NCBI GenBank assembly: GCA_029863275.1
Contig: JAOTVS010000006.1
Coordinates: 1 to 55,998 of the forward strand
DNA length: 55,998 nucleotides
Direction: 5' to 3'
From: Candidatus Nitrosopumilus sp.
Lineage (GTDB): Archaea > Thermoproteota > Nitrososphaeria > Nitrososphaerales > Nitrosopumilaceae
Shown here: positions 5,256-55,560 of the stretch, piece after piece
Numbering within the stretch: position 1 is the first letter of the stretch
How the letters are laid out: every line of letters begins with the position of its first letter
Translations under genes and position numbers: made by a program
Notes under the pieces: model-generated
Told to the model about the DNA's origin: nothing
Seen by the model: only the letters and a program-made list of their open reading frames with translations
The model's database searches: none

Positions 5256-5483
5256 GGGGTTGATTACATTTAATGTCATTGTACTTACAACTCGTGACAA
5301 TTTCCGTATAGATGAAATTGCTTTTTCAAAATCATCTTGATTCTCTGTGTGAATTTCTGCAATTACATCATATGCTCCAAAAGTAAGGTGAGCATTAGTA
5401 ACATTAGACATTTGTTTTAACTCATCTACAATGTATTCTTCTGCCCCTAAATCGCAATTTAACAAAATGAATCCAATATGCAT
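5250..5483 (-). CDS. Stand-alone Lrp/AsnC ligand-binding (RAM) domain protein
   Basis: A 77-residue protein consisting only of the effector-binding domain of Lrp/AsnC regulators, without the helix-turn-helix. The pattern is a beta strand (IGFILLNC), helix (EEYIVDELKQM), NVTNAHLTFGAYDVIAEIHT and a final VVSTMTLNVI. In full regulators this alpha/beta domain binds amino acids and assembles oligomers. Solo versions are common in archaea, where they may sense amino acids or modify other Lrp proteins. It lies close to the amino-acid catabolism genes, which fits such a role, but the ligand is unknown. Confidence 0.85.
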   Translation of the reverse strand: MHIGFILLNCDLGAEEYIVDELKQMSNVTNAHLTFGAYDVIAEIHTENQDDFEKAISSIRKLSRVVSTMTLNVINPE

Positions 5484-5530
5484 TACTTTATCTTAATTTA
5501 ATTAGAATTTACGAGCCTTTAAGTTTTACA

Positions 5531-6847
5531 TTACCATTTACTGCGTCCGCCGTATCGGTTTTGACCTCCACGACTTTCGTATCTTTTTTTATCTCGTCCC
5601 TTGTCATCTGAACTACCACTTCTACTTGATCTTCCATATCCTCCAGAACGAGAGCCTCGAGAATAACTTGATCTGCCTGATCCCCCATACCTTCTAGATG
5701 GAATCTGTCTTTTTAGGGGATCTGGAATTTTTATCTCTATTCCCATTTCTTTGTTTAAATCTTTCAAATCCGTTTTGATTTGTCGTTTAATTAAATTCCA
5801 ATCGCCTACAGATGAATATGATACAAAAGTAATTGCTCGTCCTTTTAGTCCTGCTCTTGCTGTTCTGCCTATTCTGTGGAAATAAACCATATCTTGATTT
5901 GGCACATCATAATTAATTACAAGCTCAACCCGTGGAACATCTATTCCTCTTGATGCCACATCAGTTGCAACTAGAATATCTGCCTTACCTGATCTGAATT
6001 TGGCCATGGCTTGCTCTCTTCTATGTTGAGACATGTCGCCCTCAATAGCTACTGCGTCATATTTTTCCTGATGTAGATACTTTGCTACATCTCTTGTTCT
6101 ATATTTTGTTGAACAAAATACAATAATTTGACCTTTTACTGGTTTAATAAAATCGATCAAATAATTGAATTTGTCTCGGTCTTTAATTACTAGATATCCT
6201 TGATCTATTCCCTCCCCGCTTAGATCATCTGCATCCAACAAGAATTGTTTCGCATTTTTCAAGTATTCTTCTGCCAGTCTAAGAATTTCAGTAGGCATTG
6301 TTGCTGAATAAAGTGACATAGTTCTCTCCTCAGGTGTCAAATCAAGAATAAATTGAATATCATCTATAAAACCCATATCTAGCATAGTGTCTGCCTCATC
6401 TAAAACAACATGTTGAACATTTCTTAATTCAATTGAACCTCGTTTTAGATGATCAATTAGTCTTCCTGGAGTTGCAACAATAATTTCCACACCTCTATCA
6501 AGGGCATCTAATTGAATTCCCATGCCTTGTCCTCCATAAACTGTTGCAGTCTTTATCCCAGTATACTTTGCAAATTTTTTCATTTCACCGGCTATTTGCA
6601 TAGCAAGTTCCCTTGTTGGCGCAATTACCATTGCCTGAATTCCTTTTTTTGGAGTTATTTGCTGTAATATTGGAAGTGCAAAGGCTGCAGTTTTACCAGA
6701 ACCTGTATGTGCTTGTCCGATAACGTCACGATTTGATAACAAAACAGGAATACATGCTTCTTGTATTGGAAAAACTTCTTCAAAACCCATCTCATCTAGT
6801 GCCTTTATAATCTCATCTTTGAGTCCTAATTCTTTAAATTTTGTCAT
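5531..6847 (-). CDS. DEAD-box ATP-dependent RNA helicase
   Basis: About 438 residues. All core motifs are present in order: Q motif (GFEEVFPIQ), AHTGSGKT (Walker A), PTRELA, TPGR, DEAD, SAT, then in the second RecA domain VATDVASRGIDVP and HRIGRTARAG. A C-terminal tail rich in Gly, Arg, Ser and Tyr likely binds RNA non-specifically. The frame is open to a TTG at 6868, but the ATG at 6847 gives the natural start MTKFKELGL. The likely roles are RNA unwinding in ribosome assembly or cold adaptation, as for related archaeal and bacterial enzymes. It appears to be transcribed alone. Confidence 0.93.
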   Translation of the reverse strand: MTKFKELGLKDEIIKALDEMGFEEVFPIQEACIPVLLSNRDVIGQAHTGSGKTAAFALPILQQITPKKGIQAMVIAPTRELAMQIAGEMKKFAKYTGIKTATVYGGQGMGIQLDALDRGVEIIVATPGRLIDHLKRGSIELRNVQHVVLDEADTMLDMGFIDDIQFILDLTPEERTMSLYSATMPTEILRLAEEYLKNAKQFLLDADDLSGEGIDQGYLVIKDRDKFNYLIDFIKPVKGQIIVFCSTKYRTRDVAKYLHQEKYDAVAIEGDMSQHRREQAMAKFRSGKADILVATDVASRGIDVPRVELVINYDVPNQDMVYFHRIGRTARAGLKGRAITFVSYSSVGDWNLIKRQIKTDLKDLNKEMGIEIKIPDPLKRQIPSRRYGGSGRSSYSRGSRSGGYGRSSRSGSSDDKGRDKKRYESRGGQNRYGGRSKW

Positions 6848-6949
6848 TCTTTTTCTTCTCTTAAGCAATGACGAAAAAGGTCATTACCTCTCGTCATTAT
6901 TCCGATATTTGCAAAGTTCAATTTAGGTATAATAAACCCTTGTTATCAA

Positions 6950-8243: not shown

Positions 8244-8818
8244 TTGAAATTCTCTAAACTCTCAAGCATTTCAATTCTTATCGTACTTGCAGTAGGATTT
8301 AGTTCGGCATATGCTGTAATTACAATTACACTTGCAAGAAATGTATTAGTGATTGGTGACATGGATGTTAGTGGAGCAATTACAGGATCAACAATTTCAA
8401 ATTTGGATACCAGAGTAACAGACTTGGAGAATACCTTTCTTAATCCAACCCCCAATTGTACTGTAACTGCAGGATGCATTCCAGGATATGTAAATCAAAA
8501 CATTGTTGGTGATACTCTCAAAGTGCATAGAAAATCAATTAGTTAAGTCCTAGTTAATGCACCAGAAACAGGAGAGCCAGGATTTGAGGCAACACATGAC
8601 TTAATAGCAAATTCATGACCTCAGGTTCATTTACTATAGTTGATGAAGATGATTTGCAAACAGAAGGAACCTTTGAAAGGAAAATTGGGGTTGTTTTTTG
8701 TGATGGTGTTAATCTTAATGATGCAATTTTAACTGCTGGTTTGGCAGATTTGTTTGTTTCTTTTTGTACCTCAAATGAGTTTAAAAATACCCCTTGGACA
8801 CAAACTCATGGATGTTAA
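8244..8818 (+). pseudogene. Broken secreted staphylococcal-nuclease-like gene
   Basis: A TTG at 8244, preceded by a Shine-Dalgarno-like gagggagga, starts a clear signal peptide (KFSKLSSISILIVLAVGFSSAYA). After a spacer the frame reads GDTLKVHRKSIS, meets TAA, and continues in the same frame with VLVNAPETGEPGFEATHD. A second stop and a frame change follow before TIVDEDDLQTEG, VFCDGVNLNDAILTAGLA and a Cys-terminated tail ending WTQTHGC. GDT, VNAPE and the N-x-A-L-x-x-G-L-A pattern are landmarks of the staphylococcal nuclease fold. At least one nonsense mutation and one frameshift inactivate it. The Arg expected just before VNAPE is lost at the stop. Confidence 0.7.
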
Positions 8819-8930
8819 TTTAGAATTATTTTAAAGCAAAACCACAGCCTTTTTGATACTGAAAAATTCATAATTTACATGGGTTTTGTACGAAGCTAAT
8901 ACTGAAAATATTATATTTTTGATGTTGGAA

Positions 8931-10133
8931 TCAATCTAAAGTAAAATCTTCACTGAAATATTTTGTCTTCATTACTTGTTGGGTTTTGTATTCATTACTT
9001 GTTGGGGTTTGTATTCGTTCTCCTGTTAATGGGTTAAACAAAGGACTGTGGTTAGAATATCTGTATTGTACTTGGGTGTTTTCGAGAAATTTCTGAGCAA
9101 TTTGTTCTTGTTCTATCATAATTAATTTAACTTCATCAGAAATTCTATCGCTAATGGAAAATTGATAGGTGTAACTTTCAGGAATTTTAGAGGCCAAAGC
9201 AGTTGAATTAAATACATTTGTGGCTCTTTCTTTCTCTTTTTCGACAACATTGCTAAATCCAGAGTGGTATCTAGTTAATGGATCGCCCGAATCTTGGAAT
9301 CTCTTGAATGATTGGTTTATCTGTTTGAATGAACCAAATCTGTTCATCTCAAATATCCTATCATCGCTAGCAGTCCAATGATCACTATACTTTTCAGTCT
9401 GCTTAACCTCTATTAGTCCCTCGCCCTTTACTGGAGATGGAATCATCTTAATCGGCATTGGGTTTAGAGAATCACCCAATATTTCAAATCCTTCATTAAG
9501 ATATGTTATTTGATATCTGTTTTTGTAATCAATTGCCTTGATTGCCATCACATTATCTTTTAGAGGCTCAAGAAATTTCATGGTTATTTTCGTGGCCTTA
9601 CATTTTTCTTCAGTGTCAGAATTTTGGCACTTTATTTTTTCACTAGTTACAATGATACTATTCTTATCAATTACCTCAGAATTTTGAACAGTCAAAAATT
9701 TCTCAATTTCTCCTTTAGTGTCATACCATACCTCAATTCCTAGCTCTGCCAAGTGAGCTTCTCCAATGTTTGGAATTCCAAACAAAAATTCTTGAACTCT
9801 TAAGCCTGTTTCAGAAAAGGTGATAGCTTCAAATGTATTTACTTTTCCAATAATTACTGATTGTGCGGTAAATGGTGTATGAAAATTATCGCTTATGGAA
9901 AAAGTCTGATTGTTGAATTTGAATCCGTTCTCTACAATTCTTTCATGGTTTTCATGACTCAGACCAAAAGTTGGTCTTGTTAAATATTCATATCCCTTAA
10001 TATTATCGAAGTCTTCTGTCACACCATCTGTTGTATTTTCTAAAATTTGGTCTCCAAAAACTGGAGAAACTCCCCAAATTGCAATCACCATAATCATAAT
10101 TCTAATTATTAAAATGTTGAATTTACCCCCCAA
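8931..10133 (-). CDS. Secreted hypothetical protein, 400 residues
   Basis: An N-terminal signal sequence (FNILIIRIMIMVIAIWGVSPVFG) precedes a large, mostly beta-rich extracellular protein with no second membrane segment. A Cys pair near the middle (KCQNSDTEEKC) could form a disulfide. Near the 3' end, at about 8960-9010, a roughly 25-bp sequence is duplicated in tandem, adding a few residues around NEYKTQQVMKTK. I do not recognise the family. Its position just before the surface-glycan region fits an envelope role, but this is only context. Confidence 0.75.
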   Translation of the reverse strand: MGGKFNILIIRIMIMVIAIWGVSPVFGDQILENTTDGVTEDFDNIKGYEYLTRPTFGLSHENHERIVENGFKFNNQTFSISDNFHTPFTAQSVIIGKVNTFEAITFSETGLRVQEFLFGIPNIGEAHLAELGIEVWYDTKGEIEKFLTVQNSEVIDKNSIIVTSEKIKCQNSDTEEKCKATKITMKFLEPLKDNVMAIKAIDYKNRYQITYLNEGFEILGDSLNPMPIKMIPSPVKGEGLIEVKQTEKYSDHWTASDDRIFEMNRFGSFKQINQSFKRFQDSGDPLTRYHSGFSNVVEKEKERATNVFNSTALASKIPESYTYQFSISDRISDEVKLIMIEQEQIAQKFLENTQVQYRYSNHSPLFNPLTGERIQTPTSNEYKTQQVMKTKYFSEDFTLD

Positions 10134-10329
10134 TAAAAAACATAAGTCATAATTTGATTTTAATTCATGTATGTCATGAAAGTTAGGAACATCTATTACA
10201 AATTTGCCTTTAATGATATTTTCTATCTCAATACACTATGAGAAAAAATTTTTTACGGGAATTTAGACTGAAAATAAATTAATTCAATATATTTTCCTTT
10301 TTGAAAAGTAAATTAATCAAATTATTTTT

Positions 10330-12916: not shown

Positions 12917-14764
12917 ATGGTTAATTTTTTTATTTTGGGAATAATTACATTAATTGTTTTTTTCCCATTCATTTCTGATCATTATGTGTTTGCAATTAAA
13001 AATACAGACATTGATCAATCTATTTCTAATCTGGAATCAGAATATCCAGGTATGTCCAACATTCAGTTTTTTCAAACCGATGCAAGTCCTCCATACATAA
13101 AAATAACAAATCCTAATCATTGCTCATCAAATTTTATTAACGGAACTGTACTAGTTGAAGGAATCTCTAGTGATTCAGATAAGGTAAAAATGGTCGAGGC
13201 AGTTGTTCTACCTTTCCCCTTTGAAGGGGAAATTTATTTTGAACCCACAACACCTATTGAACCTGAAGATTGGTCAAAGTGGTCAATACCACTAACTATT
13301 CCTAACGACCAACCACATAGAATTCTAGTACATGCATATGATTACTCAGGAAATGAAGAATGGGATGAAACTTTAGTCAATACCAAAAGAGCCCAAATGG
13401 TTGCCCAAGCAGTTGAAAACCAATCTGAAATAAAGATTGCCTTTGTGGAACCAACATTTACGAATGCAGCATACAATCTCGATTCATTCTACTTTTTTTA
13501 TTCTAAATATTTTTTTACGCCTAATGAACAAAAAATAACCACTGATCTGGACCTGCTTACAGGTGATATTCCACTAGAATATGAGACTGGATATTTTCAG
13601 AACCTCTTCAATCAAGTAAAACAGACGCTCCCAAACTCATTTGTGACTATTATAGGAGATGAAGAGATTCATGACGGGTCGATATTTGGTAATGATGAAG
13701 CCAATCTGTATGATGTGTTAATTTTTTTACATAATGAGTATGTTACACAACAGTACTATGACAACATGAAAGAATTTCTAATTAATGGAGGTTCGGTAAT
13801 TCTCTTGAACGGAAATGTATTCTATGCTGAGATCTTGTTTGATAGTCAATTATGCACTATTACTTTGGTGAAGGGCCATGATTGGGAGTTTGATGGAAAT
13901 TCTGCAAAACCCAGTGTGTCTGAGAGGTACCTTGATGAGAATTCAGAATGGTTTGGAAGTAATTATATTGTTAATGCTCTGGAAGATGATGTAATTTTTG
14001 AAAATAATCCCTTCAATTATTCCCACTTTGAAGAAAACCATTTAACCAATCCTCAAGCAGAAATATTGCTTGATTATAAAGTCAAATTTGCCCAGCCTCT
14101 TTTAAAACCTCCTACAAACCCATTTGTTATAGGGGGTATTTTAAAAGAAGAACCTCAAGTCCAATACAGCCACGAAAACAAAACAATTGCAACTTATGAA
14201 TTACCTTCTGGAAATGGAAAGGTAATCCATATGGGGCTGTATTCTCAGAACCTTGATTCAAATCCCGCGTTTCTAAACTATTTTGAAAAAATAATTCTGC
14301 CAAGAGCACTGGATAAAACCCATCCTATAGAAAGTGACTATGATACACCAGATGTGTACTGGATGTTTCCAGGAGGGAAGATATCTGACATCAAGCTGAA
14401 TTCAGAATCAAGGACTTTAAGCATGAAAGCGAGTTTTATTCCAAATGATAATGAACATGGATTAAAAGAATCTAATTTAACCATCGTAATTCCTAAAAGA
14501 GCATTGGATGCTCACACAGAAAACCAAATGACTGATTTTATCGTATTGGTAAATGGAATTAATACACCCTATGAAGAGTCCTTTGATGATGTTGAAAGAG
14601 GCTTAAAGATTGGTATTACTGAAGATTCCTTCATTGAAATTATTGGCACTAGTGCAATTCCAGAATTTAATATATCAATAATTGTGTTGATTATATCCAT
14701 TTTTGCGGTTTTATTATTTTCGAGAAATAATTTGAAAAATCAACGATTTTTCCAGGTTAAATGA
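12917..14764 (+). CDS. Membrane-anchored surface protein with beta-sandwich and amidotransferase-like module
   Basis: A 615-residue protein with a signal peptide (about 1-25), a beta-sandwich (about 55-150), the segment AYNLDSFYFFYSKY (about 185), a Rossmann-like module and a C-terminal membrane anchor (IIVLIISIFAVLLF). The module contains DVLIFLHNEYVT, GGSVILLNGNVFYAE and VKGHDWEFDG (about 262-330). It resembles class-I glutamine-amidotransferase-like domains such as those of N,N-dimethylformamidase beta subunits, but I see no clear catalytic Cys-His pair. The same beta-sandwich plus module forms the C-terminal half of the 1470-residue protein at 25679. It converges with the glycan operon at 14796-18237. 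Confidence 0.75.
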   Translation: MVNFFILGIITLIVFFPFISDHYVFAIKNTDIDQSISNLESEYPGMSNIQFFQTDASPPYIKITNPNHCSSNFINGTVLVEGISSDSDKVKMVEAVVLPFPFEGEIYFEPTTPIEPEDWSKWSIPLTIPNDQPHRILVHAYDYSGNEEWDETLVNTKRAQMVAQAVENQSEIKIAFVEPTFTNAAYNLDSFYFFYSKYFFTPNEQKITTDLDLLTGDIPLEYETGYFQNLFNQVKQTLPNSFVTIIGDEEIHDGSIFGNDEANLYDVLIFLHNEYVTQQYYDNMKEFLINGGSVILLNGNVFYAEILFDSQLCTITLVKGHDWEFDGNSAKPSVSERYLDENSEWFGSNYIVNALEDDVIFENNPFNYSHFEENHLTNPQAEILLDYKVKFAQPLLKPPTNPFVIGGILKEEPQVQYSHENKTIATYELPSGNGKVIHMGLYSQNLDSNPAFLNYFEKIILPRALDKTHPIESDYDTPDVYWMFPGGKISDIKLNSESRTLSMKASFIPNDNEHGLKESNLTIVIPKRALDAHTENQMTDFIVLVNGINTPYEESFDDVERGLKIGITEDSFIEIIGTSAIPEFNISIIVLIISIFAVLLFSRNNLKNQRFFQVK

Positions 14765-40458: not shown

Positions 40459-41364
40459 CTATCCAATGTTTAGTGGAATAGATGCACTTCCAAAGGGTTC
40501 GGATATTCTAAAGACATATTCCTTTGATGGGTCATATTCAAATTTCGTCCCACCATACCCAATGTTTGGTCCAAACAGCATGTTAAATACTTCAGATGTT
40601 CCGGATTTGACAATAATTTGTCCGTTTGTAAAGTCCATTCCAGAATACTTGTATGCCTTATCACCATTCCATACATCATAGTTACAAATAGATGGACCGG
40701 TGCATATCATTGCAACATCCTCAGAGGACTCATTTACTGCTAAAATTTTTACAGCAAGAATTGCTTGTCCAGTGGGACTAATTTCAAATGAATTGCCTTC
40801 AGTTCCAAGACCTGTCCAATAGTAAATCAATGGTCCTACTTGGAATGATTGTCCGTTTGATTTTATCCAATTGGCCTCAATTTCATCTTTGACGGCTCTT
40901 TCACAATTGAGTCTTTCATATGCTTTTACAATTTCAGAGCATTTTTCAAGTTCATCCTCAAGAGATGATACTTGTGAATTATCAGAAGAAATTTCTGTTG
41001 GAGGACTCATTTCAACTGGTTCAGCTGTTGGTACTGAAATAACTCCTGTTTTAATTAGATGTTGAATCCCGTTTACAAATTCTCCATCAGAAATTGTCCC
41101 ATCTGCCCACCATCCAGCATTATTTTTCACCCATTCAGGAACTCCCTGAGATTTCTCTGCTGATACTACTGTTGGGGGAATTACAATAATTCCATCTTTG
41201 ATAAGAAATTGAATTCCTTGTACAAAGTCTGATTCAGATATTGTCCCATCTGCCCACCATCCAGCATTATTTTTCACCCAAGCAGGCACCTCTTGAGCAT
41301 TTGCAAAAGAAGTAACTGAACCAATGAGTAAAATTGCTGTAATTGCAGTTATTGTGGTTTTCAT
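40459..41364 (-). CDS. Secreted protein with two WVKNNAGWWADG repeats
   Basis: 301 residues. A signal peptide (about 1-23) is followed by two near-identical repeats of about 48 residues, each with WVKNNAGWWADGTIS, an F-V-x-GIQ-x-LIK helix and I-x-VP. This repeat is widespread in secreted proteins of ammonia-oxidising archaea. The C-terminal domain has Cys residues in MICTGPSICNYD, EKCSEI and LNCERA and resembles beta-sandwich proteins of the same group. The start codon lies 22 nt from a TATA box carrying two CACTAG-type motifs, so it may belong to the regulon described in the findings. The ligand is unknown. Confidence 0.82.
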   Translation of the reverse strand: MKTTITAITAILLIGSVTSFANAQEVPAWVKNNAGWWADGTISESDFVQGIQFLIKDGIIVIPPTVVSAEKSQGVPEWVKNNAGWWADGTISDGEFVNGIQHLIKTGVISVPTAEPVEMSPPTEISSDNSQVSSLEDELEKCSEIVKAYERLNCERAVKDEIEANWIKSNGQSFQVGPLIYYWTGLGTEGNSFEISPTGQAILAVKILAVNESSEDVAMICTGPSICNYDVWNGDKAYKYSGMDFTNGQIIVKSGTSEVFNMLFGPNIGYGGTKFEYDPSKEYVFRISEPFGSASIPLNIG

Positions 41365-41385: not shown

Positions 41386-41422
41386 CTATATATTCTGGTG
41401 CTAATAAATAATCTAGTGCCAA
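41386..41422 (-). promoter_or_regulatory. CACTAG motif pair and TATA box of the secreted repeat-protein gene
   Basis: On the minus strand: TTGGCACTAG (41413-41422), 8 bases, TTAGCACCAG (41395-41404), then AATATATAG (41386-41394) and the ATG at 41364. Motif spacing is 18 bp here rather than 19. Confidence 0.65.
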
Positions 41423-41447: not shown

Positions 41448-41457
41448 CTAGTGGTAA
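41448..41457 (-). promoter_or_regulatory. Additional single CACTAG motif
   Basis: TTACCACTAG on the minus strand, 35 bp beyond the distal motif of the previous pair. It lies between the divergent genes at 41364 and 41509 and might act on either. Confidence 0.4.
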
Positions 41458-41508: not shown

Positions 41509-42045
41509 GTGAATGAAAAGCAAGACTATCTGAATACAAACAAGAAATCATTAACTGAGAAAGATGTGACAAATTATGTAATTGAGAGATTCAAAGATGT
41601 AAAGAAATCTCAAAAGATAAAAAATCTGGTAGAGTTTCATGCAATGAACAAGTATATGCTAATGTCACATGACCAAGAAGAACTAAAAAAAATGGGACAA
41701 TCTGTTGCAAAATACAAAACGATTGCATTTTTAGAAATTTTGGAATTTTACGAGTCTCATTTAAAAAAAACACTAAAAAATCCGCCCACAATTAAAAAGC
41801 ATTCAAACGTACTTTTGCATATTTTTGGTCATTTTTCCAAATATTTTGAATCCCATGAAAAAACATTATTTCTTGATTTATTAGAAAATTACAGAAAAGA
41901 AAAAATAAGTTTAGAAACAATTCTTGGACATGTAAATTCAATAACCTTTAGGTTTAACAATACATATCTAGCCTCTCAAACTTATTTTTTGCTTTATTCA
42001 AATCAAGGCTCTGACTTTTTTACCATTAATGCAAAAAATATTTGA
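41509..42045 (+). CDS. DUF1722 (YbgA-like) protein
   Basis: 178 residues, GTG start. It contains the DUF1722 signature FHAMNKYMLMSHDQEELKKMGQSVA and a helical remainder with HIFGHFSKYF. In many bacteria this domain is encoded next to photolyase (ybgA-phr of Escherichia coli) or fused to DUF523, and the same neighbour follows here after about 95 bp. The biochemical role is not established; a link with photodamage or thiouridine chemistry has been suggested by context only. No CACTAG pair is visible in its own promoter. Confidence 0.88.
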   Translation: MNEKQDYLNTNKKSLTEKDVTNYVIERFKDVKKSQKIKNLVEFHAMNKYMLMSHDQEELKKMGQSVAKYKTIAFLEILEFYESHLKKTLKNPPTIKKHSNVLLHIFGHFSKYFESHEKTLFLDLLENYRKEKISLETILGHVNSITFRFNNTYLASQTYFLLYSNQGSDFFTINAKNI

Positions 42046-42139: not shown

Positions 42140-43489
42140 ATGAATAAATATAAAAAATCACTTTTCATTTTTAGACGAGATTTACGTTTAGAGGACAACA
42201 CCGGATTAATCCTTGCCCTTCAAAAATCTGAAAAAGTAATACCTTGTTTTATTTATGATACTACTCTTGCAAAAAAGTTTTCTAAATCCTCTTTTCGATG
42301 GAATTTTTTGAATCAATCTTTAATTGATTTGGATTTAGAACTAAGAAAAAATAAAACCGCCCTTCAAGTTTTTCAAGGAATACCTAGTGGAATTGTCCAG
42401 AAAATTATCTTCAATGAAGAGGTTGATGCCATATTTGTAAATGCTGATTTTTCAAACTACTCAAAAAAAAGAGATAAAGAAATCTCAGAAATCTGCAAAA
42501 AAAACAATGTGGATTTTAACTCTCATCTTGATTTTGTACTACATAACCCAAATGAGATAAAAACAAATGATGGAAAGCCCTATACTATATATTCTCATTT
42601 TTTTAAAAAGGCAAGACAATCCCCAGTTCGAAAAATTATAAAAAATTCTAAAAACAATTACAAAATGAATACAGTTTCAGACAAAATTATCCAAAAAGTT
42701 GAGATAGAAAATTATTTAATCCCAGGAGGAAGAAAAAATGGTTTAAAAATACTTTATAATTTAGAGAAATTTAAAAATTATGACAAGGATAGGAACTATC
42801 CTGGATCAGATAGTACAACAAAACTATCTGCGCACAACAAATTTGGAACTATTTCTATAAGAGAGGTTTTTCATGCTATACAAGATCAATTGGGATTTGA
42901 TCACACACTAATGAGAGAAATTTACTGGAGGGAATTTTTTAATTACATCCTTTTCCATTTTCCTGAGTCAAACAGAAGATCTTTTAAAACACGCTTTAGG
43001 AAAATACCTTGGTCAAGATCTCAAATTAAATTTAATGCATGGTGTAATGGAAAAACAGGATTCCCAATAGTTGATGCGGGAATGAAAGAGCTAAACAATA
43101 CTGGATTCCTTCATAATAGAGTAAGAATGATTGTGGCCTCCTTTTTAACAAAAGATCTTCATATACATTGGAAATGGGGCGAGAGATTTTTTTCAAAAAA
43201 ATTGATTGATTATGATCCTGCAGTAAATGCTGGAAACTGGCAGTGGACTGCATCCACTGGATGTGATGCAGTACCATATTTTCGAATTTTTAACCCGTGG
43301 CTACAACAAGAAAAATTTGATGCCAATTGTATTTATATAAAAAAATGGATTCCAGAGTTAGCTGGAATTTCTCCAAAAATAATTCATAACCTGTGGAAAA
43401 GTTTTCCAAAGGATTTGAAATACACTAAACCAATATTAAATCATAAAGTAGAATCTCAAAAAGCAAAGGAAATCTTCAAACTTCAATAA
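42140..43489 (+). CDS. phr: Deoxyribodipyrimidine photolyase (class I CPD type)
   Basis: 449 residues. A light-driven, FAD-dependent enzyme that splits UV-induced pyrimidine dimers. The N-terminal antenna-binding domain begins FRRDLRLEDN. The C-terminal FAD domain has YWREFFNY (about 262-269), GKTGFPIVDAGMKEL, LHNRVRMIVASFLTKDL, WKWGERFF, NAGNWQWTASTGCDA and PYFRIFNPW. The Asn after AG and the Trp residues of the electron-transfer chain are in place. It follows DUF1722 on the same strand and ends 3 bp from the convergent SDR gene. Its presence fits life in sunlit water. Confidence 0.94.
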   Translation: MNKYKKSLFIFRRDLRLEDNTGLILALQKSEKVIPCFIYDTTLAKKFSKSSFRWNFLNQSLIDLDLELRKNKTALQVFQGIPSGIVQKIIFNEEVDAIFVNADFSNYSKKRDKEISEICKKNNVDFNSHLDFVLHNPNEIKTNDGKPYTIYSHFFKKARQSPVRKIIKNSKNNYKMNTVSDKIIQKVEIENYLIPGGRKNGLKILYNLEKFKNYDKDRNYPGSDSTTKLSAHNKFGTISIREVFHAIQDQLGFDHTLMREIYWREFFNYILFHFPESNRRSFKTRFRKIPWSRSQIKFNAWCNGKTGFPIVDAGMKELNNTGFLHNRVRMIVASFLTKDLHIHWKWGERFFSKKLIDYDPAVNAGNWQWTASTGCDAVPYFRIFNPWLQQEKFDANCIYIKKWIPELAGISPKIIHNLWKSFPKDLKYTKPILNHKVESQKAKEIFKLQ

Positions 43490-43492
43490 TTG

Positions 43493-44872
43493 CTATACTG
43501 GTTTACCCCTAAATTGATAGTCAATCACTTTGTGGAATAGGTTGTGAGATGAAATTACTGTAAGTGCTGCAAAAAATATGCCAACAAAGTTTCTAATTGT
43601 CATTAACTCGTTTGGTTGGGAAGCAATTATAGAAGTCTGGAAAATAACATAAAAATTATCAAACAACCAAAACCCTAGGGTAAGCCATGATAATACTCCT
43701 GCAATAAGATATCCTAAGCGAGTTTTGTTACGAATAAAAATAATTGATGCAACAATTGCACTATACCAGAAAAATGAACCTACCAACCATAGCGGTTCGA
43801 AAACTTCTGGCCGGTCATCTAGCCAATAATAAGTAATTCCCGTTATTGCTAATGCAACTAAGCTTATCTGAATTAGTTTTTGATTAATTTTAAATCCTGT
43901 TCTCTCCTCCTTAAGCTCTAATTTTGGAGGATTTTCCTTCATTTCTTTTGTTGCAATATCGATAGATTCTCTAACTGTTTTTAGCTTTAATGGGATAATT
44001 TTGGACAAGGAATCATCTGAAACAATTGTATCATGAACTAGACTGTCAATTAATGGGCGTGCAAGAGAAGCTTTCACTGGAGTAATCAAATCCACCCAAT
44101 ATGAGGAGAGGGTTGTGGTCAAGAAGGGAATTTGGATTACAAACAAGTTTTTGTTTAGATAGGCAGAATATGATCTCATTAACTCTTCATAGGTCATTTG
44201 TTCAGGACCTCCTATTTCAAAGATTTTTCCCGCAGTCTCTTTTTTCTCCAAACACCCAATAAGATAATCTATTACGTCATCTACTGCGATGGGTTGGGCC
44301 AAAGATTTGACCCATGAAGGACAAACCATAATTCTTAATCTTTCAACTAGGTATCGAAGCATTGCATAAGATCCTCCCTCAGCACCAATTATTATTGATG
44401 CACGTAACTCAGTTACAGGTATGTCTCCTGAAGCAAGAATTTGACCTACTTCCTTTCTACTTTGCATATGTGGAGATAATTCTAAACTATCATCAACCAA
44501 TCCGCCCAGATAGATAATTCTTTTAACTCCTGCCTTAGTTGCAGCATTTAAAAAATTTTCAGCCTGAACTCTTTCACGAGCTGAAAATTGTTTCCATTCT
44601 TCTTTACTTCCCTCCATAGAATGTAGCAAATAAAATGCTATCTCTATCCCATCCATTGCTTTTTCTAATTGGTCTGGTTGAAAAACATCAGCTTGAACAT
44701 ATCTTATATTTTCTGAATTTTGAATCTTCCGTCTACTCATTGCAGTTACTTTGTACCCTTTTTTACAAAGAGATGAAATCAATCTAGATCCTATAAAACC
44801 CGTACATCCTGTAACTAAAATAGAAAAAGGTGCAATCCTTAACTTAGAATCTTCTGACAAGATTTGATTCAT
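43493..44872 (-). CDS. SDR-type NAD(P)-binding protein with C-terminal membrane domain
   Basis: 459 residues. The N-terminal half is an atypical SDR: VTGCTGFIGSRL (glycine-rich dinucleotide site), AMSRRK, ADVFQPDQLEKAMDG, LLHSM, RIIYLGGL, ELRASIIIGAEGGSYAM and EIGGPEQMTYEEL. The C-terminal 130 residues form about four membrane helices (ISLVALAITGITYYWL, PLWLVGSFFWYSAIVASIIF). Similar SDR-DUF2867-type proteins accompany photolyase in bacterial light- or singlet-oxygen-induced clusters. It begins 2 bp after the stop of the small membrane protein upstream, so they form an operon under a CACTAG promoter. The substrate is unknown; a lipid or quinone is plausible. Confidence 0.85.
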   Translation of the reverse strand: MNQILSEDSKLRIAPFSILVTGCTGFIGSRLISSLCKKGYKVTAMSRRKIQNSENIRYVQADVFQPDQLEKAMDGIEIAFYLLHSMEGSKEEWKQFSARERVQAENFLNAATKAGVKRIIYLGGLVDDSLELSPHMQSRKEVGQILASGDIPVTELRASIIIGAEGGSYAMLRYLVERLRIMVCPSWVKSLAQPIAVDDVIDYLIGCLEKKETAGKIFEIGGPEQMTYEELMRSYSAYLNKNLFVIQIPFLTTTLSSYWVDLITPVKASLARPLIDSLVHDTIVSDDSLSKIIPLKLKTVRESIDIATKEMKENPPKLELKEERTGFKINQKLIQISLVALAITGITYYWLDDRPEVFEPLWLVGSFFWYSAIVASIIFIRNKTRLGYLIAGVLSWLTLGFWLFDNFYVIFQTSIIASQPNELMTIRNFVGIFFAALTVISSHNLFHKVIDYQFRGKPV

Positions 44873-45173: not shown

Positions 45174-45211
45174 TTATATAAACTAGTGATAAATAAAAAT
45201 CCTGGTGCCAA
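45174..45211 (-). promoter_or_regulatory. CACTAG motif pair and TATA box of the SDR operon
   Basis: On the minus strand: TTGGCACCAG (45202-45211), 9 bases, TTATCACTAG (45183-45192), directly followed by TTTATATAA (45174-45182). Spacing is 19 bp. Faces away from the matching pair at 45255. Confidence 0.8.
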
Positions 45212-45254
45212 TTTTGTTTAAATTTAGATAAAAATTTCTCTAAAATCTACTAAT

Positions 45255-45291
45255 TTAACACTAGAAATAAAAGTTAGCATTAGTTAAATAT
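45255..45291 (+). promoter_or_regulatory. CACTAG motif pair and TATA box of the CarH-like gene
   Basis: TTAACACTAG (45255-45264), 9 bases, TTAGCATTAG (45274-45283), then TTAAATAT (45284-45291). The ATG at 45312 is 21 nt beyond, so the mRNA is probably leaderless. The position suggests autoregulation if the encoded protein binds this motif. Confidence 0.8.
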
Positions 45292-45311: not shown

Positions 45312-46154
45312 ATGGTATACCTTCGGGCAAAAAAAGTAAAATCGGACCAGTATCTTTATCTTGTAAAGAGCATCTGGGATTCTAAAAAAAGAACCTCTAA
45401 ACAAGAAATAATAAAATATCTTGGTAAAGCAAATGAGGTTGATAAAAATGACATACCTCCAGAATACAGGAATGATTCCAAGATTTTATCCGTATTGGCC
45501 AAATACCATCCAGAAGATATTAAAAAAAGAGAAGAAGCCTCAGAAAAATCAAAGCAGCAACTATTTAAAAATTTTACACAGGGGAACATAGAAAATTCCT
45601 TAAAAATTTACGAACACTATGTAAAAATTTTTGATTCATCAGTTTTTTTCGAAAAAATTCTCAGGCCAGTAATGTACAAAATTGGAGATGATTGGGCCAA
45701 TGGTAAAATTAGTATTGCAACAGAACATGTTGCAAGTAATGTTGCACAAACACTAGTAAAAATTATCATGGACAAGGTAACGGGAAATGCAAATAAAAAA
45801 AAGATTTTGATTTGTGTCCCCCAAGGCGAAGAACACCATTTAGGATGTGATGTGATTGAAACTTTTCTCTCTGTTAAGGGATTCAAAGTTTTCAACATGC
45901 GGACTTCTCTTCCCACGGAATCTTTACTGAATTTTATTGAATACAACAAACCGGATGTGATGTTATTATCAATTACGCTTGAGGATAACCTCTCTGCAGG
46001 CCAAAGACTAGTACGAAAAATTAGAGAGCAATATGACATTCCAATATTAGTTGGTGGGTATGCAATGTATTCCTCAAAAATTCCAAAATTTGATGCAAAG
46101 GTCATACGAGAGTCAACTCTAAATGAATTGCCTAAACTCATAAGATCTGGTTGA
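45312..46154 (+). CDS. CarH-like cobalamin-binding regulator with a non-MerR N-terminus
   Basis: 280 residues. The C-terminal 110 residues form a B12-binding Rossmann domain with E-x-H-x-x-G (E173, H175, G178 in GEEHHLG); H175 would be the lower cobalt ligand. Before it is a four-helix cap with W128 and E138-H139, the W-x9-EH motif that shields adenosylcobalamin in the CarH/LitR photoreceptors. The residue after the Trp is Ala, whereas Thermus CarH has the His that ligates cobalt after light exposure. The N-terminal 50 residues (YLRAKKVK, YLYLVKSIWDSKKRTSKQE, IIKYLGKA) are basic and replace the usual MerR domain. They resemble the N-terminal part of some transposases and could bind DNA. Flanked by two CACTAG promoters. 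Confidence 0.82.
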   Translation: MVYLRAKKVKSDQYLYLVKSIWDSKKRTSKQEIIKYLGKANEVDKNDIPPEYRNDSKILSVLAKYHPEDIKKREEASEKSKQQLFKNFTQGNIENSLKIYEHYVKIFDSSVFFEKILRPVMYKIGDDWANGKISIATEHVASNVAQTLVKIIMDKVTGNANKKKILICVPQGEEHHLGCDVIETFLSVKGFKVFNMRTSLPTESLLNFIEYNKPDVMLLSITLEDNLSAGQRLVRKIREQYDIPILVGGYAMYSSKIPKFDAKVIRESTLNELPKLIRSG

Positions 46155-46158
46155 TTTT

Positions 46159-47490
46159 TTACTTTTTCAAATACTCTATAATTTTAGGCAAACAAAGAAT
46201 AGAGCTATGTGCTGCAGAATCTGTGCCTATTCCATAACTAATAGTTGAATCACCTACGAAAAACAGACCTTTAACACCTGAAACCTCGTGAGGCATTTTT
46301 GATTTCCACACTAGACCTGGCTCTTTTACGACAGATTCTACTAGTTTCCACGCCATGGGTCTTTCCCATAATAAAGATGATAGGAATTTAGGATAAATTT
46401 CATTTATTTCCTTTTTCATTTTTTCCACGATAATCCTGATTTTTTTGGGATTATCAGTCACTAAAGGATCCACAGGAGTTCCTGCAATTATCAAGTGTTC
46501 ACCAGGAGGGGAAACTGTAGGGGTAATATTGGAAATAAAGAATATTCCCTTGGTTGTATAGTGAATGCCAACTGGGAAAATAACCTGTCTAGTATCGATT
46601 TTTGAGTTTAGTGCAAAATGTACTTCTACAACTGCAGTAGTTTTATTTAATCTGTTTACCTCGGTTACAAAATTTTTATCAAAAACATCGTGTTCAAATA
46701 ATTCATTGATTGCATGATATGCAGGGTAGGATACCACTACGCAATCTGTAGGGAAAAATTCGCCACCAGTAGTTATAATTCCTGTAACTTTGGAATTCTC
46801 AACATTAATTCGTTTTACAGGTGAATCGAAAAAAATTTTTCCATTATTTTTAGTAATGTATTTGGCCAAAACTTTTGAAACTGAATCATATCCTCCCTCA
46901 TCAGGATACGCAAATTCACTTGTTCCCCCTTTGAATGGATTTGCCCTGATCATGGTTCTGGCAAATTCTCCTAGGGAAATATGGTTTGCCGTATCTGCAA
47001 AAGCTAAAATACAAATTGCTTCAAAAAAGGCATTTGTTTTTTCATCTAAATTTTTGGTAATTTTAGTTAGGGGCATATTGTCCCATTCTTCAGTTTTTTT
47101 AATTGATGTAAATGCTATAGGGAGTAGAATTTTTAAGAGTTGAAATCTACTTTTCAGAGGGATTAAAGAAAGGCGCAATAAGTCTACTATTCCTTTGGGG
47201 TATTTGTGAAAACCCGAATCCGAATGAAATGCGATATCGTCCACTTTAGCAAGTTTCAACCAAGTTTCTATTTTTAATGATTTTAGAATTGTAAATATTG
47301 AAGATTTTTTGTAAAATGGCATTATATGAAAACCGTTATCAAGAATGTGATCTTTGAATTTCATTGAGGCTGTTCTGCCTCCTAGTTTGGATGATTTTTC
47401 AATTATTTTTACTTCAAAACCCTCGTTTGCAAGCAATGCACCTGTTGTCAATCCTCCAACACCGGCACCAATAACATACACTGTCTTCAC
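46159..47490 (-). CDS. FAD-dependent oxidoreductase of the phytoene desaturase/amine oxidase type
   Basis: 443 residues, GTG start. The N-terminal FAD site is VYVIGAGVGGLTTGALLANE followed by EKSSKLGGRTAS; the C-terminal FAD segment is GVKGLFFVGDSTISYGIGTDSAAH. Between them is a substrate domain with many hydrophobic residues. Relatives desaturate carotenoids or oxidise lipids, retinol or amines. No carotenoid synthase is visible here, so the substrate is open; a membrane lipid or quinone is possible. It converges with the CarH-like gene and has its own CACTAG promoter with the GTG 21 nt from TATA. In bacteria such oxidases are common in light-induced photolyase clusters. Confidence 0.87.
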   Translation of the reverse strand: MKTVYVIGAGVGGLTTGALLANEGFEVKIIEKSSKLGGRTASMKFKDHILDNGFHIMPFYKKSSIFTILKSLKIETWLKLAKVDDIAFHSDSGFHKYPKGIVDLLRLSLIPLKSRFQLLKILLPIAFTSIKKTEEWDNMPLTKITKNLDEKTNAFFEAICILAFADTANHISLGEFARTMIRANPFKGGTSEFAYPDEGGYDSVSKVLAKYITKNNGKIFFDSPVKRINVENSKVTGIITTGGEFFPTDCVVVSYPAYHAINELFEHDVFDKNFVTEVNRLNKTTAVVEVHFALNSKIDTRQVIFPVGIHYTTKGIFFISNITPTVSPPGEHLIIAGTPVDPLVTDNPKKIRIIVEKMKKEINEIYPKFLSSLLWERPMAWKLVESVVKEPGLVWKSKMPHEVSGVKGLFFVGDSTISYGIGTDSAAHSSILCLPKIIEYLKK

Positions 47491-47510: not shown

Positions 47511-47548
47511 TTATTTATGCTCGTGCCAAAATTTATTGATAGTGCTAA
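47511..47548 (-). promoter_or_regulatory. CACTAG motif pair and TATA box of the FAD oxidoreductase gene
   Basis: On the minus strand: TTAGCACTAT (47539-47548), 9 bases, TTGGCACGAG (47520-47529), then CATAAATAA (47511-47519). Spacing 19 bp; the GTG start is at 47490. Confidence 0.75.
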
Positions 47549-47551
47549 CTT

Positions 47552-48001
47552 CTAATTGAAATTTGAAATAGAATAATATTTTTCAGCTGATGAAATAAAT
47601 TCGTTCATTACCTTGCGCATTTTTTTCTCAACATAATCTTCTAAAAACCAAAATATTTTCATGAATCCAGTAAATACCAATTTAACCTCAATAGTAACGA
47701 CACTTCCATTTTTAGTTGAAAGATAAGTTTCAATAAACTGAGTTCCCTTTGTTGGGCCATTTAGAATATAGACCTCATGAATATTGGGTTTTATAATTAC
47801 ATGTTTGGTTTTTACTTTTATTGGTAAATGTAAAAATTTTAATTTTTCAATAACATATTTTTCGGTATCTTTTTCCTCTATTATTTTTAAAGATTTGAAA
47901 TAGTTAGGCAATATTTTGTGAAAATTTTTAATATCTGTACTAATGTGAAAAATTTCTTTTTGCGAAAGCGATGAATACTTTTTTAACGTAAAGGACTTCA
48001 T
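47552..48001 (-). CDS. SRPBCC-fold (polyketide cyclase/lipid transport-like) protein
   Basis: 149 residues with the helix-grip pattern: an N-terminal strand, LSQKEIFHISTDIKNFHKILPNYF, several strands (VIEKLKFLHLPIKVKTKHV, YILNGPTKGTQFIETYL, VVTIEVKLVFTG) and a long C-terminal helix (VEKKMRKVMNEFISSAEKY). The fold makes a deep hydrophobic pocket for lipids or polyketides. Such proteins often accompany photolyase and flavin oxidases in bacterial light-stress clusters. Its start is 2 bp after the stop of the upstream gene, so the two form an operon. Confidence 0.8.
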   Translation of the reverse strand: MKSFTLKKYSSLSQKEIFHISTDIKNFHKILPNYFKSLKIIEEKDTEKYVIEKLKFLHLPIKVKTKHVIIKPNIHEVYILNGPTKGTQFIETYLSTKNGSVVTIEVKLVFTGFMKIFWFLEDYVEKKMRKVMNEFISSAEKYYSISNFN

Positions 48002-48003
48002 TG

Positions 48004-48360
48004 CTATAGGATAATTTCATTGGCTTGAGGGATGTTAGTTTTAATAATTTTACAATCATTATAATTTTGCATAATTTGTTTTCCCACCAAGGCCATGGAT
48101 ATCTTTACTTCTTCTGTCTTTTCAGGATCAGTGCTAGGATACAAACGAATAGTGGTCTTTGATTTCCGGGTTGAGATTTCAATTAGATATTGTTGATGAA
48201 TTTTTGAAATAGCTACTGCTGGCAAGAGAGCAGTCAAATTATCCTTGTCAACAAAAATTGTAGATACTCTAACCAAAAATGGTTCTTTTTGAAAAATTGG
48301 TACAAATTTTTTTGAAAAATTCATCAAATCAATTTTCTTGTCAAATACTATGTGGGGCAT
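48004..48360 (-). CDS. Hypothetical protein, 118 residues
   Basis: Starts at the ATG at 48360 (MPHIVFDKKIDLMNFSKKF); the frame is open to 48423 but that part overlaps a promoter motif. Mixed alpha/beta, soluble, with no Cys cluster apart from DCKII. I do not recognise the family. It is co-transcribed with the SRPBCC gene under a promoter with one CACTAG motif. Confidence 0.65.
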   Translation of the reverse strand: MPHIVFDKKIDLMNFSKKFVPIFQKEPFLVRVSTIFVDKDNLTALLPAVAISKIHQQYLIEISTRKSKTTIRLYPSTDPEKTEEVKISMALVGKQIMQNYNDCKIIKTNIPQANEIIL

Positions 48361-48413
48361 TATTACTATCTTACTTTTGATGTTCTTGTATTTATTTGAA
48401 AAAGAAAAATAAC

Positions 48414-48423
48414 CTAGTGCCAA
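48414..48423 (-). promoter_or_regulatory. Single CACTAG motif before the 118-residue gene
   Basis: TTGGCACTAG on the minus strand, followed by GTTATTTTTC as a possible weak TATA box. No partner at 19 bp. Confidence 0.55.
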
Positions 48424-48952: not shown

Positions 48953-49117
48953 ATGCAAACAAAAATAACAGAAAGAAAAAATAATGAATCACATTTAGTT
49001 TATAAAAATTCTGAAATTAGAATTTGTGTTATTTGTGGCTACAATAAAATAGACTCCTATGAATTTGGTGTATCTTGTGAAGAATGTGGAGCCTTGTTTG
49101 GGAGGTCAAAATGCTAG
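48953..49117 (+). CDS. Zinc-ribbon micro-protein overlapping the TFB gene
   Basis: 54 residues ending with ICVICGYNKIDSYEF and SCEECGALFGRSKC: a proper zinc ribbon with C-x2-C pairs about 15 residues apart. The last codons overlap the TFB start (ATGCTAG) in another frame, so translation is probably coupled. The following TFB has an incomplete zinc ribbon, so this protein might supply or complement that function; this is inference. Confidence 0.65.
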   Translation: MQTKITERKNNESHLVYKNSEIRICVICGYNKIDSYEFGVSCEECGALFGRSKC

Positions 49118-50016
49118 CTGAACTTGTTCATCAAAAGGACTGTAGAAATTATAAAATTATTACAGATATGACTACTGGAGAAACTGCTTGTAGTACCTGT
49201 GGATCAGTTTCAATTGAAAAATCTGTGTATATGGGAACTGAAAATACTGGAGTTACAAAAGAAAATTATCTCAAAAATGCTAGAGTTGGAAGAAAAATTT
49301 CATTAAAGATGGCGGATATGGGTCTATCAACTATTATTGAGTTAAAAAATACAGATTCTACTGGAAAAATACTTTCCAATGAAAACCGCAGAATGTTTTA
49401 TCGCCTACGAATGTGGGATCGCAATAGTCGTCATGCAAATACTACCCAATCATTTCAAAAAGCTTTCATTATCCTCGATGGAATTCGCACCAAACTAGGT
49501 TTACCTGATTCAGTAGTTGAGCATTCTGCATATTTGTTCAGGAAAATTGCATTGAAAAAACTACTTGGAGGAAGATCAACTTTGGGAATTATTTCAGCCA
49601 CAGTATACATTGCATGTAGAGAAACAAATACTCCTAGGACCTTGCAAGATGTTGCAAATGCTGCAAACCTTAAAAGAAAAAATTTACAGAAAATCTACCG
49701 ATTCCTTGCAAATGAGCTTCAACTCCATCCTGTTTCATATAACCCTAGAGAATTTGTGACAAGAATTTCTAAAGGTGTGATGGCATCTGAAAAAACCGAA
49801 AGACTTGCCTTTAAGATTATCTCTTTAGCTGAAAAAAATGGAGTATCTGCAAGCAAAAATCCTATGTCTATTGCTGCTGCAGCCGTCTATATAGCTGTTC
49901 AAAAAAATAATGAAAAAATTTCACAGACAAAAATTGCAAATGCATCTGGAATTACTTCAGTCACAATCAGGGATAGAACAAAAGAAATCAAAAAAGAATT
50001 AGGAGGTGAAATTTAA
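49111..50016 (+). CDS. tfb: Transcription initiation factor B (TFB) paralogue with degenerate zinc ribbon
   Basis: 301 residues from the ATG at 49111; the longer frame to 49084 overlaps the upstream gene. TFB bridges TATA-binding protein, the BRE element and RNA polymerase. Two cyclin-like repeats are clear (about 100-195, SVVEHSAYLFRKIA and GIISATVYIACRETNTPRTLQDVA; about 205-300, ERLAFKIISLAE and IAAAAVYIAVQKNNEKISQTKIA). The N-terminal ribbon has only one normal pair (ACSTCG); the first pair is reduced to HQKDCRNY. The B-reader region (GRKISLKMADMG) is altered from the usual form. It is therefore likely a specialised rather than the general TFB. Flanked by overlapping zinc-ribbon genes. 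Confidence 0.92.
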   Translation: MLAELVHQKDCRNYKIITDMTTGETACSTCGSVSIEKSVYMGTENTGVTKENYLKNARVGRKISLKMADMGLSTIIELKNTDSTGKILSNENRRMFYRLRMWDRNSRHANTTQSFQKAFIILDGIRTKLGLPDSVVEHSAYLFRKIALKKLLGGRSTLGIISATVYIACRETNTPRTLQDVANAANLKRKNLQKIYRFLANELQLHPVSYNPREFVTRISKGVMASEKTERLAFKIISLAEKNGVSASKNPMSIAAAAVYIAVQKNNEKISQTKIANASGITSVTIRDRTKEIKKELGGEI

Positions 50017-51318: not shown

Positions 51319-51504
51319 TCATTTTGCAGTAATTGTCAGTTTTCCAGTTAGAGAAACTGTTCCTGTGGGTACTGTCTTACCTGCCCTTTCGACCTTACCT
51401 TTCATCTCTAGATTCTCAAAATCATAAGTGATTGTGGCATGCTTTTCGGTAAGTTTGTCAAAAATTTCAGCAAGTAAATTTGCCCATTCTTGTTCTTCAG
51501 CCAT
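51319..51504 (-). CDS. Small hypothetical protein, first gene of a CACTAG operon
   Basis: 61 residues (MAEEQEWANLLAEIFDKL, then KHATITYDFENLEMKGKVER and a strand ending KLTITAK): one helix followed by beta strands. No family recognised. The ATG is 21 nt from the TATA box of a motif pair. Confidence 0.6.
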   Translation of the reverse strand: MAEEQEWANLLAEIFDKLTEKHATITYDFENLEMKGKVERAGKTVPTGTVSLTGKLTITAK

Positions 51505-51524: not shown

Positions 51525-51562
51525 GTATTTAATCTAGTAGTAAAAATAACTACTAGTGGTAA
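51525..51562 (-). promoter_or_regulatory. CACTAG motif pair and TATA box of the 51504-50230 operon
   Basis: On the minus strand: TTACCACTAG (51553-51562), 9 bases, TTACTACTAG (51534-51543), then ATTAAATAC (51525-51533). Spacing 19 bp; start codon at 51504. Confidence 0.8.
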
Positions 51563-51627: not shown

Positions 51628-52173
51628 TTACTGAATAGTAAATTTGGTCCCTAGTAAATTTCCCATTATTTTTAATGCATATCTGCATACATTTGAGTTT
51701 AAAGTGAAAAACCCTCTAAAATTACCCTCTCCAATCTCCTCGGCAATTAAGCCAAAAGGACCATATGGCCCTCTTGTAATAACTGTCCACACATTTACCA
51801 AATCTGTATTTTTACAATCATGCAACTGTATTTTTGATGAAGTTTTTAATTCAGCTTTTCCGAAATCTGCAATTACCCAAATTTTTGGTATTTTTTCAAT
51901 CATCTTTTGGTATCTGCTTTCTACAAATTTGTATCTGGCAATTTCTTCAAAACTTGCAAGGATGGGTTCACTATTCTGAACAGCATATTTTTCAATTAAT
52001 TTACTAAGATTATACAGTGGCTTTCTTTCTGCAAGAAAGTTATGATACCCAGCTTCTACAAATTTGTCAAGATTCCACATAGGAAGCTTGGTATTATCTA
52101 AATTATGCCATTCTGCAAGTTGAGGAAATTCGTCCCAAACCTGTCCTACAAAACCACTATAGGGACTATTCAT
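51628..52173 (-). CDS. Possible DICT-like sensory domain protein
   Basis: 181 residues, soluble. The C-terminal half (KIWVIADFGKAELKTSSKIQ, then VNVWTVITRGPYGPFGLIAE and NFRGFFTLNSNVCRYALKIM) resembles the DICT domain found beside light-sensing and two-component proteins in cyanobacteria and haloarchaea. The match is by eye and tentative. No output domain is attached. A TATA box (CTTATATCT) lies 21 nt from the ATG, without CACTAG motifs. Confidence 0.55.
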   Translation of the reverse strand: MNSPYSGFVGQVWDEFPQLAEWHNLDNTKLPMWNLDKFVEAGYHNFLAERKPLYNLSKLIEKYAVQNSEPILASFEEIARYKFVESRYQKMIEKIPKIWVIADFGKAELKTSSKIQLHDCKNTDLVNVWTVITRGPYGPFGLIAEEIGEGNFRGFFTLNSNVCRYALKIMGNLLGTKFTIQ

Positions 52174-54107: not shown

Positions 54108-54144
54108 TTACCACTAGAAATTGTTATTAACACTAGTTAAATAC
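54108..54144 (+). promoter_or_regulatory. CACTAG motif pair and TATA box of a zinc micro-protein gene
   Basis: TTACCACTAG (54108-54117), 9 bases, TTAACACTAG (54127-54136), TTAAATAC (54137-54144). The ATG at 54165 is 21 nt beyond. This is the clearest copy of the arrangement. Confidence 0.85.
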
Positions 54145-54164: not shown

Positions 54165-54269
54165 ATGAGTTTAAGTACCTTAACTAGATGCAAAAATTGT
54201 AAAAAGGAATATGACAATTGGTCTTGTGATTACTGTTATACCATATCATTGCTAAACAGGATGAGGTGA
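54165..54269 (+). CDS. 34-residue zinc-finger-like micro-protein
   Basis: LTRCKNCKKEYDNWSCDYCY gives two C-x2-C pairs 9 residues apart, then a short hydrophobic end. Preceded by the best CACTAG promoter of the window and followed in the same frame by an FMN-binding protein frame, so both are probably on one mRNA. Confidence 0.65.
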   Translation: MSLSTLTRCKNCKKEYDNWSCDYCYTISLLNRMR

Positions 54270-55391: not shown

Positions 55392-55429
55392 TTGGCACTA
55401 GAAATAAAATTTAACACTATGTTATATAT
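55392..55429 (+). promoter_or_regulatory. CACTAG motif pair and TATA box of a 36-residue membrane peptide gene
   Basis: TTGGCACTAG (55392-55401), 9 bases, TTAACACTAT (55411-55420), TTATATAT (55422-55429). The ATG at 55450 is 21 nt beyond, which selects it over the ATG at 55445. Confidence 0.8.
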
Positions 55430-55449: not shown

Positions 55450-55560
55450 ATGAAAGCAGAAACAGAACCAATGAGCGGAAAAAAACTATTTGCAATTGTT
55501 GCAGCCATTATGGTAGGTGCAGTAATTACTGGTCTTGTACTCTTTACAAATTTCTTGTAA
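55450..55560 (+). CDS. 36-residue single-helix membrane peptide
   Basis: MKAETEPMSGKKLF followed by one helix (AIVAAIMVGAVITGLVLF) and a short end. It resembles small stress-induced membrane peptides in size only. The promoter arrangement is its main support as a real gene. Confidence 0.65.
   Translation: MKAETEPMSGKKLFAIVAAIMVGAVITGLVLFTNFL

Follow-up and report, generated by a model that had tools for sequence, protein, structure and literature searches.

The window, which is the whole 55,998-nucleotide stretch of Candidatus Nitrosopumilus DNA that was analyzed, contains a gene for a CarH-like regulator (car) at 45312-46154 on the forward strand. The reading frame is a real gene, called as an ORF and matched in Pfam, NCBIfam, the PDB and Foldseek, and it encodes 280 aa from an ATG start. 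Residues 85-152 (45564-45767) form a B12-binding_2 four-helix bundle (Pfam, E 2.7e-9) and residues 164-251 (45801-46064) form a B12-binding Rossmann domain (Pfam, E 1.4e-9) with the E/DxHxxG motif. Both matches exceed the curated cut-offs. The sequence-only reading had pointed to the W-x9-EH and E-x-H-x-x-G cobalamin motifs, and both were recovered as exact matches, W128-ANGKISIAT-E138-H139 and E173-E-H175-H-L-G. By motif reading, the adenosyl-stacking W128 and the following A129 are encoded at 45693-45698, E138-H139 at 45723-45728, and E173-x-H175, the predicted lower axial cobalt ligand, at 45828-45836 (all forward strand). The main-lineage copies retain W-x9-EH throughout the order, even at about 31% identity, and only a group of second-copy paralogues has lost it, so the match is not due to chance. 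No MerR domain was detected by Pfam or NCBIfam. A biliverdin-binding globin domain is also absent, as only about 30 aa follow the Rossmann domain.

The best NCBIfam model is CarH (NF052513), with a score of 63.5 bits that lies below the equivalog cut-off of 400 bits; corrinoid methyltransferase proteins score 44 bits and MetH scores 33 bits. The CarH model is matched only from its position 79 on, which is outside of the MerR part, and identity to CarH in the sensor is 23%. The best PDB sequence matches are the photocobilin 8j2w (top single-sequence match, 3e-11), 8jbs, which by its structure title is a Chloracidobacterium MerR-protein sensor, and CarH. Nearly all of the 48 best Foldseek matches are CarH, photocobilin or other W-EH light-sensor domains. 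The structure model has a pLDDT of 87.5, which is good locally, and a pTM of 0.46, which is poor globally and leaves the domain arrangement unfixed; its TM-score to CarH is about 0.35-0.5. The TM-score fails to separate CarH from methyltransferase carriers, as 7xcn scores like CarH, and therefore the distinction rests on the motif and the gene neighborhood. In a tree of sensor domains MetH splits off cleanly and Thermus CarH is too divergent to be placed, so descent from CarH is not claimed.

The corrinoid carrier of a methyltransferase has the same folds, and the protein could be such a carrier with an accidental N-terminal extension. MttC and MetH appear lower in the PDB and Foldseek match lists, and a distant relative (L186) scores slightly higher with a methyltransferase corrinoid model than with CarH. 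However, W-x9-EH is absent from the two MetH-type proteins examined, the basic N-terminal domain is conserved with the protein throughout, no methyltransferase gene adjoins car, and a conserved operator, predicted to be autoregulatory, stands at the car promoter. A carrier function is thus extremely unlikely.

The residue that follows the Trp differs from that of CarH. Thermus thermophilus CarH, read from plasmid pTT27, has W131-H132, E141-H142 and E175-x-H177, and the earlier observation that Ala replaces the His is correct for A129. The aligned relatives have A, S, T, K, V, E or M at this position and never His. In the PDB search the H132A variant of CarH (8c35) scores above wild-type CarH, which fits an Ala at residue 129. 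Because the MerR domain and His132 were both tested for and are absent, the archaeal protein is not filed as CarH.

The N-terminal domain (residues 1-64, 45312-45503, forward strand) is basic, homologous to the N-terminus of IS1634-type transposases, and putatively DNA-binding. Structure prediction gives beta strands at residues 2-9, 12-23 and 28-39 followed by a helix, with a pLDDT of about 90. The domain is strongly conserved, with 17 relatives 47-84% identical to that of the window, and it occurs once in the window's genome. A profile search of 300 genomes of the phylum found the same architecture in three families of the order and only a few weak matches outside of it. The best of these (E 6e-8, in one genome, locus L188) is the N-terminus of a broken DDE-transposase-like gene of another phylum member, and the ORF downstream reads by eye as the C-terminus of a DDE transposase. 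The matched N-terminal fragments of L188 and L189 have no family match in Pfam or NCBIfam. The sole plasmid match is to the first residues of an annotated Rhodococcus IS1634-family transposase and is weak (E 0.6). These two matches agree with the description of a basic, transposase-like N-terminus in place of MerR. The car protein itself has no DDE catalytic domain and has only the N-terminal domain in common with these transposases. The claim that the domain is new holds in part: it is already found in IS1634-type transposases, but none of the open-access papers searched describes it on a B12 sensor. Searches of the PDB and Pfam with the domain gave no matches, and a fold search gave nothing significant (best E 0.45, with PC4 second at 0.78). 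No solved structures supporting DNA binding by this fold were found, and the putative DNA-binding role is therefore assigned without fold backing.

Many of the genes around car recur in relatives. An SDR/NmrA-type oxidoreductase is encoded at 43493-44872 on the reverse strand and a photolyase, of the CPD/8-HDF type by best family match, at 42140-43489 on the forward strand (Pfam, NCBIfam). The photolyase is adjoined by a DUF1722 (YbgA-like) protein (41509-42045, forward strand, by family match). On the other side of car are a FAD-dependent oxidoreductase of the amine oxidase or HpnE-CrtI-like type (46159-47490, reverse strand; Pfam, NCBIfam) and two cluster-conserved proteins of 149 and 139 aa with no known family (47552-48423, reverse strand). 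A 301-aa predicted secreted protein (40459-41364, reverse strand) is a conserved regulon member by neighborhood and operator comparison, and an archaeal transcription factor B gene (TFB; 49084-50016, forward strand; NCBIfam) is part of the conserved cluster. The photolyase, SDR and FAD oxidoreductase stand beside car in many Nitrosopumilaceae, and in one locus (L052) car and the photolyase gene downstream of it share a strand, with 2 bp between them. The window also encodes a 181-aa protein (51628-52173, reverse strand) with a weak likeness to the DICT sensory domain (E 0.04), relatives of which adjoin car or a car paralogue in several genomes.

The same three neighbors are present in the Thermus carH region. 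The SDR of the window is 33% identical over 301 aa to the Thermus SDR (E 4e-59) and the photolyases are 28% identical. The LitR region of Pseudomonas likewise has phrB, a short-chain dehydrogenase and a FAD oxidoreductase (PMC9758184). A photolyase was found in 41 of 200 genomes, and 39 of these 41 have car (Fisher p = 6e-14, with shared ancestry not corrected for). One of the two genomes without car (G095) has the SDR, photolyase, DUF1722 and 301-aa genes, with a contig end at the expected site of car, and G041 is the one true exception. In 8-HDF photolyases the antenna is a deazaflavin of the F420 type. In a genome of another family of the order (L187), two genes near car (5325-5981 and 5975-6916) resemble CofC and CofD of the F420 pathway when inspected by eye.

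A conserved tandem operator, TTAGCACTAG-N9-TTAGCAYTAG, abuts the TATA box of car's own promoter. In the window it reads TTAACACTAG-N9-TTAGCATTAG (45255-45283, forward strand) and abuts the TATA sequence TTAAATA, with the start codon 29 bp on. Relatives have the tandem TTAGCACTAG-N9-TTAGCATTAG directly before the TATA box upstream of start codons. Most loci have the operator at the car promoter, among them those of relatives whose protein is 30-36% identical. Nearly all relatives space the boxes 19 bp apart; in the other two families of the order the distance is 18-20 bp. A weight matrix trained on relatives only, with the window left out, found seven pairs in the window at a score of at least 19, where shuffled sequence gives an expectation of 0.03. 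All seven abut a TATA-like sequence and have a start codon 29-31 bp past them. In addition to car, tandem operators precede the divergent SDR transcript (45183-45211, reverse strand; start codon the ATG at 45153), the FAD oxidoreductase gene (47520-47548, reverse strand) and the gene for the 301-aa secreted protein (41395-41422, reverse strand, 18-bp spacing). The region 45174-45291, which had been singled out in the sequence-only reading, thus has two conserved operators inside it. The other three pairs are at 51534-51562 (reverse strand), 54108-54136 and 55392-55420 (both forward strand). They lie 29-30 bp before ORFs of 61 aa (51319-51504, with more genes downstream), 34 aa (54165-54269) and 36 aa (55450-55560), which are likely unannotated small proteins of a light regulon. 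No tandem operator stands directly before the photolyase in the window; a single reverse box (41448-41457, reverse strand) is found at about -61 of the DUF1722 start instead. Of the 21 loci scanned, 18 keep a lone reversed box between -59 and -64; in the other three, the start-codon call is long or the box is missing. Three other loci have photolyase-proximal boxes.

The exact operator pattern occurs as four pairs in the 1.76-Mb genome, all within the window. A total of 118 pairs were found across 41 loci, and most of them precede car, the 301-aa gene, the SDR unit or the FAD oxidoreductase. With the reversed pattern as control, the 200 genomes have a mean of 2.35 operators per genome with car (control 0.64) and 0.376 per genome without car (control 0.358). 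The excess over chance is therefore confined to car-bearing genomes and the operator tracks car. This co-conservation suggests that the car protein binds the TTAGCACTAG boxes. In a distant relative (L185), a further gene next to car has the operator in front of it, namely a pyridine-nucleotide-disulphide (NDH-2-like) oxidoreductase (8790-10214).

Since the boxes abut the TATA box, lie in the BRE region and share the cluster with a TFB gene, they may instead be the sites of some other local factor, such as the neighboring TFB in the role of an alternative promoter factor, with the B12 protein acting by protein contact. However, genomes without car show no operator excess, operators stand at the car promoter even where no TFB gene was detected in the vicinity, and neither -57 nor -61, where single boxes stand (reversed at -61), is a BRE position. 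It is very improbable that the boxes are read by a different factor.

The domain pair was also sought in other archaea. The architecture is present in about 91 of 200 sampled Nitrosopumilaceae genomes, including Nitrosopumilus (N. salaria and many MAGs), Nitrosarchaeum, Nitrosotenuis chungbukensis and Nitrosopelagicus, and in two further families of the order, whose members keep W-x9-EH at 31-36% identity. Several genomes have a second paralogue that is 37-41% identical. Paralogues without W-x9-EH were found at L070 (7549-8415), L071 (7402-8265), L072 (5092-6045) and L073 (7890-8756); the first three keep GEQH and the last does not. The promoters of these paralogues are also without the TTAGCACTAG operator, and some have by eye a CTCACC..GGTGAG-like palindrome instead. 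Two of them adjoin a half-size gene with the helix bundle only. The window's genome also encodes a 297-aa protein on another contig (G000:C80, about 13192-14085; L003 1252-2145, forward strand), a second regulator derived from B12 domains. It has a B12-binding_2 bundle, an N-terminus that looks HTH-like, and a Rossmann part that is degenerate and lacks ExH.

The loss of W-x9-EH in these paralogues is of the kind expected if the fold were kept while another cue, such as redox or a partner protein, acts on the regulator. Myxococcus CarA provides a precedent, as it keeps the B12 motifs yet needs no B12 (PMC8156234). The main lineage, however, keeps both motifs across the order, and the paralogues show what loss looks like. 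A regulator that is independent of B12 is therefore improbable in the case of the car protein.

Taken together, the protein is probably an AdoCbl-dependent, light-responsive transcription regulator of ammonia-oxidizing archaea that acts on a local photoprotection regulon, including its own gene. The earlier proposal of a CarH-like cobalamin photoreceptor with another DNA-binding domain is the best-supported reading, given the top NCBIfam match to CarH, the W-EH sensors among the Foldseek matches, the neighborhood and the operator. By analogy, the protein is best read as acting like CarH, and it presumably binds cobalamin and responds to light. AdoCbl is available in the host, since the window's genome encodes both adenosyltransferase families and an AdoCbl mutase. 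The helix bundle and Rossmann domain would hold AdoCbl, with Trp128 and Glu138 above and His175 below, and would set the oligomeric state, while the transposase-like N-terminal domain would read the TTAGCACTAG boxes. In the dark, the AdoCbl-bound oligomer may sit on two boxes 19 bp apart, which is two helical turns and the same face, directly upstream of TATA. The predicted targets are car, the SDR, the FAD oxidoreductase, the secreted protein and the small proteins, with DUF1722-photolyase reached through the single reverse box. Light would cleave the Co-C bond, and without its adenosyl group the oligomer may loosen by way of the Trp/Glu-His helix, in the manner of photocobilins. The resulting change in promoter occupancy would switch the photoprotection genes. 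By analogy the protein would be a repressor in the dark, and repression fits the proximal box, which covers the BRE region. An activator role is possible, since the boxes are upstream of TATA.

The Ala at the His132 position counts against the light-sensor reading, and so do the lack of a tandem operator at the photolyase itself and the car-bearing genomes that have no photolyase. After light, Thermus CarH forms a bis-His state with His132 and then disassembles, and the H132A variant, in which most light-driven tetramer dissociation is blocked, stays largely tetrameric (PMC10442372); the same paper mentions an earlier report of H132A CarH disassembling in light. The Ala, together with the lack of a photolyase in 52 of 91 car-bearing genomes, could mean that the protein senses the cobalamin level, with AdoCbl or cobalamin binding alone setting DNA binding, a metabolic regulon and no physiological response to light. 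However, photolyase is almost confined to car-bearing genomes, the photolyase, SDR and FAD-oxidoreductase neighbors are common to Thermus carH, and no gene for B12 synthesis, uptake or a B12 enzyme was seen among the predicted operator targets. AdoCbl held in such a site is also expected to be photolyzed, as is established chemistry. Photocobilins, which are proven light sensors, dissociate without a bis-His state through movement of the Glu-His helix (PMC10979010). Because they work in this way, a sensor of the cobalamin level is less favored than a light sensor and seems unlikely, and a photocobilin-type route is proposed, as no His is available for the bis-His state.

The light-responsive regulator proposed here has parts in common with several known systems. 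CarH and the class I LitR proteins of Thermus thermophilus, Bacillus megaterium and Myxococcus share the B12 helix bundle and Rossmann domain, W-x9-EH, ExH, the photolyase, SDR and FAD oxidoreductase neighbors, and a direct-repeat operator overlapping the promoter, which in the archaeal protein is predicted and has another consensus. They differ in having the MerR domain and His132. The CarH operator consists of 11-bp repeats, nAnnTnnACAn (PMC8156234), whereas the archaeal one has TTAGCACTAG boxes at 19-bp spacing on TATA promoters. The photocobilins SasPcob and AbDPcob share a sensor with W..EH and E/DxH that lacks the His132 bis-His route, but have a biliverdin-binding globin domain where the archaeal protein has a putative DNA-binding-type N-terminal domain. 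Transposases of the IS1634 type (IS4 superfamily) share the N-terminal beta domain with its YLYLVKSxWDxxxxxxxQxxIKYLG-like motif; the archaeal protein differs from them in lacking the DDE domain, in being single-copy and in its fusion to a B12 sensor. CtMerR and the other B12 photoreceptors of the SignatureFinder survey share the W-EH sensor with varied output domains, which differ from that of the archaeal protein (PMC11796333). The main text of that survey makes no mention of archaea, and none of the open-access papers searched reports CarH or another B12-based light sensor from archaea.

It is reasonably likely that this is the first archaeal B12-based photoreceptor, in which a domesticated transposase DNA-binding domain is joined to a CarH-type sensor without the His switch. 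It would control a photoprotection regulon of the most abundant ammonia oxidizers through operators of a new code, alongside sensor-less paralogues with a different promoter element. As a second DNA-binding solution coupled to a CarH sensor, it would be of use for green-light optogenetics, and it would be a natural case of how B12 photoreceptors work without His132. Light inhibition of ammonia-oxidizing archaea influences the distribution of nitrification in the ocean, and to our knowledge no photoreceptor or light regulon has been established in these organisms. The car locus supplies a specific candidate for such a sensor, together with a defined operator and a small set of predicted target genes.
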